A DNA stretch of 64,000 bases from Beverwykella pulmonaria (taxonomy: Eukaryota > Ascomycota > Dothideomycetes > Pleosporales > Melanommataceae): NCBI GenBank assembly GCA_001599595.1, contig BCHH01000010.1, forward strand, positions 989,392-1,053,391, written 5' to 3'. This document shows, piece after piece, positions 34,733-39,113 of the stretch; position 1 is the first letter of the stretch, and the number at the start of each line of letters is the position of its first letter. The position numbers were made by a program, and so were the translations under genes. The notes under the pieces were generated by a model. It was not told the origin of the DNA, made no database searches, and saw only the letters and a list, made by a program, of their open reading frames with translations.

Positions 34733-37341
34733 TTAAACGCCAATATTCATCTTCTCCAGCCGCCATTTGCTCAGACGCGAAAGTGATGATGTTGTATGTG
34801 GATGATGTGGACCAAGAATTTGCTCTTGCAGCTGGAAGCACTCCTCCATCAATGATATAGCCTTGTCGTAATGGCCTTGGCTCATTAACGTAAAAGCCAG
34901 GTTGGCCATGCTGATCAGTGTGTCTGGATGCTCCCCCCCAAGCACCCTCTTTCTCATCTCCATCACTTGCACCTCTAGCCCTTCAGCCTCCTTCCACCGC
35001 CCTTGGTTCCCGTACGTCAACGCCAGGTTGCACATGCTGGTCAGCGTGGAAGGATGCTCCTCCCCAAGCACCTTCTTTCTCGTCTCCATTACTTGCACCT
35101 CTAGGCCTTCAGCCTCCTTCCACCGCCCTTGGTTCCAGTACGTCAACGCCAGGTTGCCCATGCTGATCAGCGTGTCTGGATGCTCCTCTCCAAGCACCCT
35201 CTTAAACGTCTCCATCGCTTGCACCTCTAGCCCTTCAGCCTCCTTCCACCGCCCTTGGTTTCTGTACGTCGACGCCAGGTTGTCCATACTAATCAGCGTG
35301 TCTGGATGCTCCTCCCCAAGCACCCTCTTAAATATCTCCATCACTTGCACCTTTAGCCCTTCAGCCTCCTTCCACCGCCCTTGGTTTTCGTATGTTGACG
35401 CCAGGTTGCCCATGCTGATCAACGTGTCTAGATGCCCCTCCTTAAACACACTCTTTCTCATCTCTATTACTTGCACCTCTAGCCCTTCAGCCTCCTTCCA
35501 CCGCCCTTGGTTTCTGTAAGTTAACGCTAGGTTGGCCATGCTAACCAACGTGGAAGGATGCTTCTCCCCAAGCACCCTCTTTCTTGTCTCCATTACTTGC
35601 ACATTCAGCTCCTCAGCCTCCTTCCACCGTCCTGCAAGGCTTGTTGCTAGCCCTACCATCTCTATACTACTTAACGTGTCTATATGCTCTTTACCAAGTA
35701 ATTTTTTCCTTACCTTCATTGACCTTATTGACAGGTTTTCAGCATCACTTAGACTTCCTTTTTTCCACGCATACGACGCCGCGTTGTATAATAATAGAGC
35801 CCACTCCTTCAGTGACTCCCCCTTCTGAGGCCTCTGTGATAATGCTGACTTTACATGCGGAAAAATCGCCTGGCATTTGCCCCAGTTCTCATACCTCCCT
35901 AACGGAAACTTTGCGCAAAGCTTTGTGATAAAATGCTCCTTCCATGCTTCTAATTGGCCCTGCTCTCCTAACCACTTCTGTGTGGCTAGCTGCACAAGCC
36001 TATGCATGTTAAACGTGGTAGCATCAGTGGTAAGCGCAATAAATGAGTAGTTCCGTAGCATGAGAATATCCTCTTCAAACCCATCGTCAACACTGGCTTC
36101 CAACTCACTATCGTCGCTGTCACTGTTTTCGCCGTTTATATTAATGGCTTCTACGCCATTGTAGCTGCTCCCTAGCCTACTTTGATTGCGTACAAGCTCT
36201 TCAGGAATTCCCTGTCGGTCAAAGAAGCTCATTAATGACAACAGGTCTGCCGCTGACCGCCTCGCATGAAGGATATGATTGAACGAGATTTGCCACGTTC
36301 TAAGAATAGAGTTCTTGGCTTCGTCATCTCTCCGGAGACATCCTCCGTCGTAGTCTAATAGACTTGTCCTTTTCCTGTCGCTCTTGTGGAACTCCTCTAG
36401 GTATTGTTGTACTGAACACCTTGGTGACCGTTGTCGGATGTACGCTGCTGCCTGCGCAAGAGCGAGTGGCATAAATTCAAGGGCTGCTGCTAACTCGGCC
36501 GTGCCGCTGTTGTCAAACTTGTCTCCCAGCTTCTTTTGTAGAAGAGCTTGCGCGCCGGCGTTGTCCATGGGCTCGATGGGTATAATATCGCTCTCCTCCA
36601 CCAGCTGCGATGCCATGCTCTTCGTTCGACTGGTCACCAGAACCGAGCCGTTCTTGCTCTGGGGCAGATACGATTTGAAGTAACGTGGAGGAGCGCCTCT
36701 CGCCTGTGTCTTCTGGTCATTGCTCGCTGGTAGAGAGAGAGCAGCGGCATCGTCGGCATTATCGAGAACCAACAACCATTTTCCGTTCTTCTCGTTGCGA
36801 AGCCAGTTAGAAACGAATTTGAACACATCCGCTTGTGGGTCTTTCCGGCCAGCAAGCTTGACCTGGTCCGCGATGTCTCGGTAGCCTTGTTCAATACGGA
36901 CCGCGTTGCTGGCATGCACCCAGAACACCCACGTGTCCGGTGACCGATCCGCGGTGCGATAGCAGTACTCGATGGCAAGCTGTGACTTCCTTTGCCTGTG
37001 TTAGGTGCAAGCACTGGCCCAAGTGTCCTTTCGGCTTACCCCACACCGCCGAGGCCCACAAGCGCTATGCGAGATGCCGGCACGGAGCATTTTTCGCGAA
37101 TCCGGTCGAGCAGCGTTCCGCGATCGACGAAGTCAGGGTCGCGGCGAAAGGGGACGGCGCAGGAAGGGTTCAGCGGGGTCTCTGGCCGCTCTGGGATGGG
37201 GATAGCCGTTAGCACAGTCGAGCATTGACCGTCCTTTAACCTACCAGGCGGTGGATGATAGTGAACATGGCCGTTGATGATGCCAGCCTGAAAGCCGCAG
37301 TTGCGGTCTCCAAAGGCAATCGCCGTGCTGGGTTGTGCCAT
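34733..37341 (-). CDS. NOD-like receptor: amyloid-type N-terminal motif, NB-ARC NTPase, TPR repeats
   Basis: Two exons, 37341-37040 and 36989-34733 (50-nt intron inside the P-loop), give 852 residues. Residues 8-24 read I-A-F-G-D-R-N-C-G-F-Q-A-G-I-I-N-G, the same motif that ends the divergent neighbour gene. A proline-rich linker leads to an NB-ARC-type NTPase: Walker A G-L-G-G-V-G-K-S near 96-103, Walker B K-W-L-L-V-L-D-N near 171-178, sensor S-V-L-V-T-S-R, then a G-x-P-L-A-like helix (F-M-P-L-A-L-A-Q-A-A-A). The rest, from about 530, is seven 42-residue TPR units of the kinesin-light-chain type (E-H-P-D-T-L, N-Q-G-R-W-K-E-A) plus a partial one. Fungal NLRs of this plan sense a ligand through the repeats, oligomerise and pass a fold to an effector. 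The ligand is unknown. The frame is intact, so the gene is probably functional. Confidence 0.92.
34790..35705 (-). repeat. 126-bp coding tandem repeats (TPR array) in the receptor gene
   Basis: About seven units of 126 bp encode the 42-residue TPRs. Units 2-6 (roughly 34950-35620) are near-identical in DNA as well as protein: the CTTCAGCCTCCTTCCACCGC string recurs at each period. Outer units (the first and last) are more diverged. Such internal homogeneity points to recent unit exchange by unequal recombination or conversion. Confidence 0.85.
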
Positions 37342-37536
37342 GTCGAATGTACAGGCAGAGGGCTTCGCGCGGCGTAGTAGGAGGTTCGTAGGGCCAATGT
37401 CTTGAGATACGGCGGCTTAGCTGAGCCTCGATCTCAGCCTCGCTCGTTGTAACCTCGCGCTCCATTGTTTGTATACTTCTTCCATCTCAAATCGGCATCC
37501 GAAATTTTTGGTCTTCATCACGTCAATTAGATCGAA
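37342..37536. promoter_or_regulatory. Shared divergent promoter of the receptor/effector pair
   Basis: Only 195 bp separate the two start codons, so the receptor and its partner are probably co-regulated from one control region. I recognise no specific factor site. Confidence 0.6.
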
Positions 37537-38427
37537 ATGCCCGATCCTCTTAGCGTTGCCGCAAGCATCGTCAGCGTTACTACCCCCGCCCTGCACGGTA
37601 CACGCCTTCTACTCAATGACCTCAGCAACCTCATCGATGCTCCACAGACCCTCCAGAACCTGAAAAATGACGTTGCATCTGCAGAGACGGCCCTTCAGTC
37701 ACTTCAGGGCATACAGGACCCTGAATGGGATGTCCTTGGTCAAGGTGTAGCTAATCAGTCCAAGGTGGCAATCAAGAACTGTGAGAATGCATGCAGCAGC
37801 TTCCAAGCCAACCTACAGCGCTGGACAAGACACTCTCAAGAAGGAAAGCTATCATGGCGAGACAGAGCAAATGTTGGCTTCTTCAAAGAACATCAGATAA
37901 GAGCCATGTCTGAGCAGCTTCAGAGCTGCAAAATCACTTTCAATGCAGCTGTTAGCGTGGCGACGTTGTATGCAATCTATACGGGGCCTATGAGCACGCC
38001 CACTATGCTAATATGCTCGCACAGGTATAGCTCTATCCGCCATACTCATATTACTGAGGAAATAAGGCGGACGGTTTTAGTCAGAGAGGAGGAGATTTCT
38101 AGTGCCATCACATTAACAGATACGCAACTCTCGGCAGTGGATAGAAACTTAGGGGAAATTAGTCTTGAGTCTGACCGCCGAGAGGGCCAGGATAGAGAGG
38201 AGGTGAGGAACACGGTGCAGCAGATCGAAGAGGAACGAGCTGCACTTGGCTGTTTGCAAAATTTGCTCAAGAGTCTACAGACAAAAGCACAAGAAGACGC
38301 TGTGGCAAAAGCTGCTAGTAAAAGCCAAAAACTGTCTACCAATGTGACGTTTGGAAATAACAATACCGGGTTCCAAGCAGGTATTATCAACGGTGGTGTT
38401 AGTGGGCTTACTTTTGGATCGAAGTGA
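37537..38427 (+). CDS. Putative effector with HeLo/PigL-like N-domain and C-terminal amyloid-type motif
   Basis: Exons 37537-37967 and 38025-38427 give 277 residues. The 57-nt intron (GTATGC donor, TGCTAAT branch, ACAG) is frame-neutral and stop-free, so an unspliced 296-residue form is also open. The N-terminus M-x-D-P-L-S-V-A-A-S-I and the helical run to about 140 match the fungal N-terminal domain often seen on STAND proteins (PigL_N/HeLo-like group). A charged coiled coil (about 155-240) follows. The last 28 residues contain V-T-F-G-N-N-N-T-G-F-Q-A-G-I-I-N-G, 12 of 17 identical to the receptor's N-terminal motif. In known fungal pairs the effector's helical domain attacks membranes once the motif is templated into amyloid. 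That role is inferred here. Paralogues with other N-domains exist, so the domain name is tentative. Confidence 0.85.
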   Translation: MPDPLSVAASIVSVTTPALHGTRLLLNDLSNLIDAPQTLQNLKNDVASAETALQSLQGIQDPEWDVLGQGVANQSKVAIKNCENACSSFQANLQRWTRHSQEGKLSWRDRANVGFFKEHQIRAMSEQLQSCKITFNAAVSVATLYAIYTGPMSTPTMLICSHRYSSIRHTHITEEIRRTVLVREEEISSAITLTDTQLSAVDRNLGEISLESDRREGQDREEVRNTVQQIEEERAALGCLQNLLKSLQTKAQEDAVAKAASKSQKLSTNVTFGNNNTGFQAGIINGGVSGLTFGSK

Positions 38428-38532
38428 CCATACTTCCACAATAGCGCAAAGCACTCGGAGTATGCAACGATACAATAGCTAATGAAATGGTTTATCTGCT
38501 ATACATGAATGTCCTGAGTGTGAGGAGCAAGG

Positions 38533-38772
38533 CTGAAACCTAGGCCCAGCTGGGAAGACGTTAATGGTTCTTGCCAATCTGTTATCCAATGGCTCTCACG
38601 TGCCCAGAGGGAATGGTTGGTCGTCCTCGATAATGCCAATCGAGATTACGTCAATATTGAGGTTTGCATTTTAAACGGAAGACATGCAAACGTCATAATC
38701 ACAAGTAGGGATCGGAATCTTCGAACGCAAATCGGAACAAAAACCTCAAAAAGAGGTTGGAAGCATGGATAG
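38533..38772 (+). pseudogene. Relic of a STAND/NB-ARC NTPase domain
   Basis: 80 codons without ATG, ending in TAG. They contain W-L-S-R-A-Q-R-E-W-L-V-V-L-D-N-A-N (Walker B pattern), followed after 19 residues by N-V-I-I-T-S-R-D-R-N-L (sensor pattern). The spacing and wording match the middle of fungal NB-ARC/NACHT proteins. P-loop, helical and repeat domains are absent. It lies 105 bp after the effector stop on the same strand, so it may be the leftover of a former receptor that carried the same N-domain. Confidence 0.7.
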
Positions 38773-38858: not shown

Positions 38859-38902
38859 AAAGGAGCTTCACGAATTGACAAAAGGAGCTTCACGAATTGA
38901 CA
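38859..38902. repeat. 22-bp direct tandem duplication
   Basis: The string aaaggagcttcacgaattgac occurs twice with a 22-bp period, just downstream of the NTPase relic. It is non-coding and probably a recent slippage duplication. Confidence 0.8.
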
Positions 38903-39113
38903 AAACGAGCACCAGACGTATGCGAGCACCCTATTACATTACAGCTACTTTGGTATCATCGAGGAGCCTACCGACGCCCCATTTCCAAGCTACCCTCCAC
39001 CCCAAAATGGACCCTAGTGTACTCATACAGAACCGTGTCAAACGCCGTGAAGATGCCCATCTATGCATGACATCAATTACAGCATAACAATTTATCCTCT
39101 TCATCCTAAAACT

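Follow-up and report, generated by a model that had tools for sequence, protein, structure and literature searches.

A divergent receptor/effector gene pair with a shared PP-type motif in Beverwykella pulmonaria: a probable two-gene signalosome of the PNT1/HELLP kind

Background

The PP motif and the receptor/effector layout that goes with it were defined in PMC3321046 and have been in the literature since 2012. The PP motif of Podospora anserina forms prions and fibrils (PMC7885112). Its strict core is given as NxGxQxGxN, and in receptors it usually lies near residues 5-9 (PMC9815663). Here we describe two divergent genes of the fungus Beverwykella pulmonaria, one for a nucleotide-binding oligomerization domain-like receptor (NLR) and one for a HeLo-like effector, that share such a motif. 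They lie in a stretch of 64,000 nucleotides, the window, of a 45.6-Mb genome assembled in 31 contigs (contig BCHH01000010.1; G000:C10:989392-1053391). We interpret the pair as a PNT1/HELLP-type signalosome made up of two genes that share a PP motif, a reading to which we give a probability of about 0.86.

A motif shared by the receptor start and the effector tail

The two genes and their motifs are arranged as follows.

34733..37341, minus strand: receptor gene, an NLR with NB-ARC, DUF7779 and tetratricopeptide repeats (TPR), exons 37341-37245, 37190-37040 and 36989-34733, 834 aa, predicted splicing
37342..37536, no strand: 195-bp region between the two start codons, genes divergent
37537..38427, plus strand: HeLo-like effector gene, exons 37537-37967 and 38025-38427, 277 aa, predicted splicing
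37270..37320, minus strand (37320..37270): receptor PP-type motif IAFGDRNCGFQAGIING, receptor residues 8-24
38344..38394, plus strand: effector PP-type motif VTFGNNNTGFQAGIING, residues 270-286 of the 296-aa open reading frame (ORF) and 251-267 of the spliced protein

A preliminary description of this DNA had claimed divergent genes with 195 bp from start codon to start codon and a motif placed at receptor residues 8-24 and in the effector tail, with 12 of 17 residues identical, and all of this was confirmed. The motif alignment scored 77. Shuffling the whole proteins 500 times gave at best 63, and shuffling the two 60-aa ends 5000 times gave at best 40. At the 12 identical residues the codons are the same in four cases and synonymous in eight, and 33 of 51 nucleotides are identical between receptor and effector. 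Since no shuffle reached the score and 8 of 12 codons differ, the likeness is kept at the protein level and is not that of a fresh DNA duplication. A six-frame scan of the window for N.G.Q.G..N found no site beyond these two motifs, and thus no third copy, a lipase (SBP) domain not being a specific target of the search.

Gene models and protein families

Splice sites of both genes were predicted from GT/AG signals and from relatives, and the effector model contains one intron.

37968..38024, plus strand: effector intron, in frame, 57 nt, encoding 19 residues without counterpart in seven aligned relatives

The seven aligned relatives (271-284 aa) pass directly from ATL to YSS or HSS, and because all seven lack the 19 residues we predict a 57-nt intron within the 296-aa ORF. 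Several relatives' gene calls end at or shortly past this position, and 277 aa is the commonest length among the listed effector relatives (20 of 120). The effector belongs to PF17111, the HeLo-like family, with 74.1 bits against a cut-off of 27.2 (1.3e-20). Homologues number 131 at E 0.001 or better, and all 120 listed carry the PF17111 annotation. Among them, P0110 of Podospora pseudocomata (271 aa) aligns with the window effector across 99% of its length at 36% identity. The designation HELLP(214-271) implies a length of 271 aa for P. anserina HELLP (PMC7885112); by this match in length, and not in accession, P0110 is probably the HELLP orthologue. A structure model of the relative P0003, built from 60 sequences (mean predicted local distance difference test, pLDDT, 76.4; predicted template modelling score, pTM, 0.68), places nine helices within residues 7-247 and leaves the tail without regular structure. 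Sequence searches of the PDB gave no match with the effector and just four weak matches (E 0.49 or more) with alignment A1.

The receptor model contains two introns and a repeat array.

37191..37244, minus strand: receptor intron 1, in frame after the motif, 54 nt, GTAGGT...CCCAG, encoding 18 residues without counterpart in four aligned relatives
36990..37039, minus strand: receptor intron 2, at the P-loop codons, 50 nt, GTAAGC...AAAG
34888..35633, minus strand: TPR array with a 126-nt unit, 5.9 copies and 85% matches, giving six 42-aa repeats

Removal of intron 1 restores the alignment to P0121, P0135, P0226 and P0131, and removal of intron 2 yields GLGGVGKSQLA, as in the four aligned relatives. 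A 44-nt version of intron 2, which gave an odd P-loop, was dropped for the 50-nt one. The frame is likewise interrupted just ahead of the P-loop lysine in two paralogues from the same genome (L045 and L046). With its inserts gone, the spliced 834-aa receptor is 76% identical to Mytilinidion P0121 over 657 columns. Several public NLR records (e.g. P0124, P0140, P0160) show PPGK... after the motif where others have PPERPETPP, and this replacement suggests that intron 1 is retained in the gene models of those relatives.

When the spliced model is scanned over residues 1-585, NB-ARC exceeds its cut-off (33.2 versus 23.5 bits) and NACHT barely does (28.8 versus 26.7), whereas the exon-3 ORF alone leaves NB-ARC below the cut-off (14.0 bits). 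TPR_10, TPR_12 and DUF7779 also exceed theirs in the Pfam scan, in agreement with the TPR-bearing receptor described before. The architecture is NB-ARC plus TPR with no other N-terminal domain and the motif from residue 8, as in receptors of the PNT1 type, and the protein retains a P-loop and the Walker B-type sequence KWLLVLDNADD. NLRs with prion motifs are associated with highly conserved repeats (PMC4986451), and the 85% likeness of the TPR units at the DNA level is in line with this association.

Linkage of the two genes in relatives

We searched for relatives of both proteins and compared 120 of the 558 NLR matches with 120 of the 131 effector matches. Eighteen named organisms occur in both lists, and 9 of these have receptor and effector on one contig, meaning contigs of identical size, read by eye from tables from which orientation is not readable. 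The nine are Lepidopterella, Acephala, Trapelia, Leptodophora, Coleophoma, Cadophora AT-0126, Bimuria, Mollisia and Ophiobolus, the listed effector of the last (P0104) being short and without the motif. Locus numbers are consecutive in three of them: Leptodophora (ACEPPN_000485/486), Trapelia (MMC30_009216/009217) and Coleophoma (BP6252_09458/09459). The metagenome proteins P0024 and P0179 both derive from contigs of 3,872 bp, presumably one and the same, which would make a tenth case of linkage. The preliminary description had made its reading depend on the two genes being kept as neighbours in relatives, and this is borne out in so far as the genes, adjacent in the window, lie on contigs of equal length in 9 of the 18 organisms.

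Relation to the PP motif

Profile searches tie the two motifs to each other and to those of their relatives. A profile of relatives' effector tails matches the start of the window receptor (residues 4-27, independent E-value, i-E, 5.2e-6) and 55 of the 120 listed NLRs within their first 60 residues (i-E below 0.01). In the reverse direction, a profile of NLR starts picks up the tail of the window effector (i-E 4e-6) as well as 83 of the 120 listed effectors within their last 60 residues (i-E below 0.01), while shuffles gave 0 matches of 2400 in each direction. Of the listed proteins, 82 of 92 effectors at least 245 aa long and 89 of 120 NLRs carry the motif. Both window motifs are also matched by a profile built from 16 classic-PP effector tails, that of the effector with 26.0 bits (i-E 6e-7) and that of the receptor with 13.8 bits (i-E 0.0039). 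PF17046, a model described as 'PP (misnamed SesB)' (PMC12261475), is the sole Pfam family matched by either motif peptide, and it matches 13 of the 60 effectors scanned (E 0.01). A PF17046 search of the B. pulmonaria genome gave no match and gave none in its 14 control genomes either, and is thus uninformative.

Taken with the PF17111 effector, the NB-ARC/TPR receptor and the frequent placement of the pair on one contig, the PF17046 match bears out the PNT1/HELLP layout that had been named for this locus. The likeness to the PP motif itself holds in part, since the classic effector profile detects both motifs, yet the strict core is missed and PF17046 stays below its cut-off.

Several observations weigh against our interpretation. 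The two window motifs score 12.7 and 13.7 bits with PF17046, under its cut-off of 23.2. Reading NxGFQAGIIN, they miss the strict core because the second Asn falls one position later, and their second core hydrophobic residue is Ala. With the classic-type NLR-start profile, the tail of the window effector scores 6.7 bits (i-E 0.81), which is no match. Among the relatives, the remaining 9 of the 18 organisms show no same-contig pair among the listed proteins. Motif identity in linked pairs averages 10.0 of 17 residues versus 9.84 between pairs (permutation p 0.32; 10 comparable entries of 11, P0104 being without the motif), so that no pair-specific co-evolution was detected. Finally, the fold search gave no match at E 0.001 or better, and MLKL/HeLo structures were not singled out.

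The core Ala bears on whether the shared stretch might be a non-amyloid homotypic docking peptide, through which receptor and effector would bind without cross-beta templating. In favour of this, I, V or L is the usual residue at this position in classic PP motifs and in the RIP homotypic interaction motif (RHIM), the modelled tail lacks regular structure, and our evidence consists of sequence. We nonetheless consider a docking peptide unlikely, as the window motif is continuous in sequence with classic PP motifs, of which that of P. anserina forms prions and fibrils (PMC7885112), and its pattern of G, N and Q is conserved. A system of the sigma type (sesA/sesB/het-eN) in place of a PP one would fit the name of the matching Pfam model, Ses_B. 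Against it, the model is described as a misnamed PP (PMC12261475), the repeated GxGxQFNxx and GGTQNINT units reported for sigma (PMC3321046) are absent here, and NACHT_sigma (PF17106) did not turn up in Pfam scans of the window proteins and motif peptides. We regard a sigma-type system as hardly credible. The comparison with PP and sigma models proposed in the preliminary description thus gave PF17046 as the only match, below its cut-off, with PF17106 absent.

Other copies and fragments in the genome

Matches to the effector tail occur at five places in the B. pulmonaria genome, namely the two window motifs and three fragments (L039, L040 and L041, on contigs C3, C5 and C6, with L039 the one on C6). 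No full effector or receptor was found alongside the fragments within the 9.9-kb stretches examined. The window pair is the only complete motif pair found in the genome, by a search that sets a lower bound. This company of fragments, together with a broken NB-ARC-like piece just past the effector, could indicate that the window pair is itself a decaying, functionless relic. We find this very unlikely: both genes are fully open after plausible intron removal, NB-ARC exceeds its cut-off with the P-loop and KWLLVLDNADD present, and the motif residues are preserved despite synonymous divergence. A functional PP-type pair remains the reading we prefer.

At locus L039 (C6:1061778-1062216) a degenerate effector-tail motif and a receptor-start stretch share a strand, with about 80 bp between them. 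The match to the receptor breaks off before a complete P-loop, and no effector body was found there; L039 is a putative decayed pair, arranged otherwise than the window pair. The piece past the effector (window 38524-38769, plus strand) retains WLVVLDNA and NVIITSR and has a weak nSTAND_NTPase5 match (14.3 bits versus 34). It was matched by none of the 120 listed NLRs at E 1e-3, and is perhaps the relic of a second receptor. A 22-bp tandem repeat (2.4 copies, 96% matches) occupies window positions 38859-38910. Extended alignments had suggested a leftover duplicated effector tail upstream of the receptor ATG; this candidate was rejected, its profile score being -2.0 against a shuffle mean of -1.25 (from the 882 of 1000 shuffles with a score).

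Over the aligned part of the body, identity to the window receptor is 74% for a paralogue on contig C2 and 71% for one on C8. In the C8 paralogue, the stretch read ahead of NB-ARC showed no PP-type motif. The C2 paralogue (L045, about 912876-912986) carries a different conserved N-terminal stretch, TTGTKAFGAISNNYGVVVGD, and NLRs from other species have starts resembling it (P0145, P0149, P0168, P0175, P0187). This stretch could be another signalling motif; a second copy was not found in the same genome.

Two versions of the motif

The later position of the second Asn is shared by many relatives. We typed 133 listed effectors of 215 aa or more and the 120 listed NLRs by whether an Asn or His occupies the classic position or the next one. 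Among the effectors, the residue stood solely at the next position in 65, solely at the classic one in 16, at both in 5 and at neither in 13, with 34 unregistered; the corresponding numbers for the NLRs were 41, 28, 11 and 4, with 36 unregistered. The shifted form clusters on a tree built from 96 HeLo-like domains (13 changes versus 27.2 when shuffled) but does not have a single origin.

The two types match across the two protein families. Counting matches at i-E 0.05, a threshold passed by no shuffle, a profile of 60 shifted-type effector tails detected 41 of 41 shifted NLRs (median 34.0 bits) and 8 of 28 classic ones (7.7 bits). A profile of the 16 classic effectors detected 28 of 28 classic NLRs (29.2 bits) and 37 of 41 shifted ones (17.5 bits). 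The shifted NLR-start profile matches the window effector tail with 34.9 bits. The match between receptor and effector extends past the type-defining positions, because effector-derived scores still separate the NLR types when these two positions are masked (area under the curve 0.997). Nearly all classic effectors in this comparison come from Sordariomycetes, and relatedness inside each set was left in. The classic NLRs are mostly from Dothideomycetes, with a few from Eurotiomycetes and one from Xylariales, all classes being assigned by genus name. Since classic effectors and classic NLRs thus differ in class, shared taxonomy is not the simple cause of the type match. Judged by these profiles, the window motif GFQAGIING belongs to a widespread sub-type of PP with matching receptors and effectors.

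NLRs of both types occur within one species in Mytilinidion resinicola (P0121, P0181) and Pyrenophora tritici-repentis (P0182, P0136). The classic and double types account for 0 of the 10 linked NLRs and for 39 of the 74 other typed NLRs (Fisher p 0.0014), a contrast that is biased because the shifted-type window proteins served as queries for both lists. The existence of two versions and their matching between receptors and effectors is observed in the sequences. Tentatively, PP may comprise two or more matched versions (GFQAGIINGxV and G[L/Q]QVGxNSGxI) that co-occur in one genome and act as separate channels without cross-seeding, the window pair being a complete example of the first. This is a possibility that we hold to be somewhat doubtful, and insulation between the versions is entertained only as a part of it. 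A literature search for the letters GFQAG with amyloid found nothing; motif letters in figures and supplements fall outside its coverage, so the sub-type may already be published.

Proposed mode of action and relevance

By analogy with characterised homologues, we postulate that the pair acts through amyloid templating, membrane targeting and killing, and the family to which it belongs points to a role in cell death, which may serve defence or incompatibility. The TPR array of the receptor would sense a cue, upon which the receptor would oligomerise via NB-ARC and gather several N-terminal motifs, nucleating an amyloid. This receptor-motif amyloid would template the effector tail, and the HeLo-like domain would then attack the membrane.

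With this locus, a further complete receptor/effector pair of the PP type is described with corrected gene models, and a PP sub-type comes to light for which both window proteins score under the Pfam cut-off. Should the two versions not cross-seed, they would allow a natural experiment on how parallel death pathways are kept separate by short amyloid motifs, and such a separation, if true, would also be relevant to RHIM signalling.

Comparison with known systems

In NWD2/HET-S, the receptor N-terminus templates the tail of an adjacent death effector, as we propose by analogy for the window pair. The HET-s system differs in that its motif is another one, a 21-residue solenoid repeat, and its receptor is of the NACHT/WD kind (PMC7885112, PMC5485727).

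The animal RHIM of RIP1 and RIP3 resides in different host proteins. Its Q-x-G-x-x-N spacing is the same as that of the window motif. A PDB search with the effector tail, a 32-aa query of little power, matched no RHIM chain up to E 10 and gave one unrelated match. The RHIM likeness suggested for this locus is limited to G-F-Q-A-G, which fits the G-x-Q-x-G core of RHIM (PMC7885112), and to Q-x-G-x-x-N.

The Arthroderma pairs on which PP was first defined likewise combine an NB-ARC/TPR receptor, a neighbouring effector and a shared motif, but their effectors are HeLo proteins, whereas that of the window is HeLo-like (PMC3321046). Their consensus, FxGx(x)NxGLQLxGxNxGxL, is unmatched by the window motifs, as the spacing after Q differs, with G at +3 there and at +2 here (PMC3321046). 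In PNT1/HELLP, as in the window, an NB-ARC/TPR receptor with an N-terminal motif adjoins a HeLo-like protein with the same motif at its C-terminus; the difference lies in the motif itself, which is GFQAGIING in the window and a form like GQQVGVNSG (P0110) in PNT1/HELLP.

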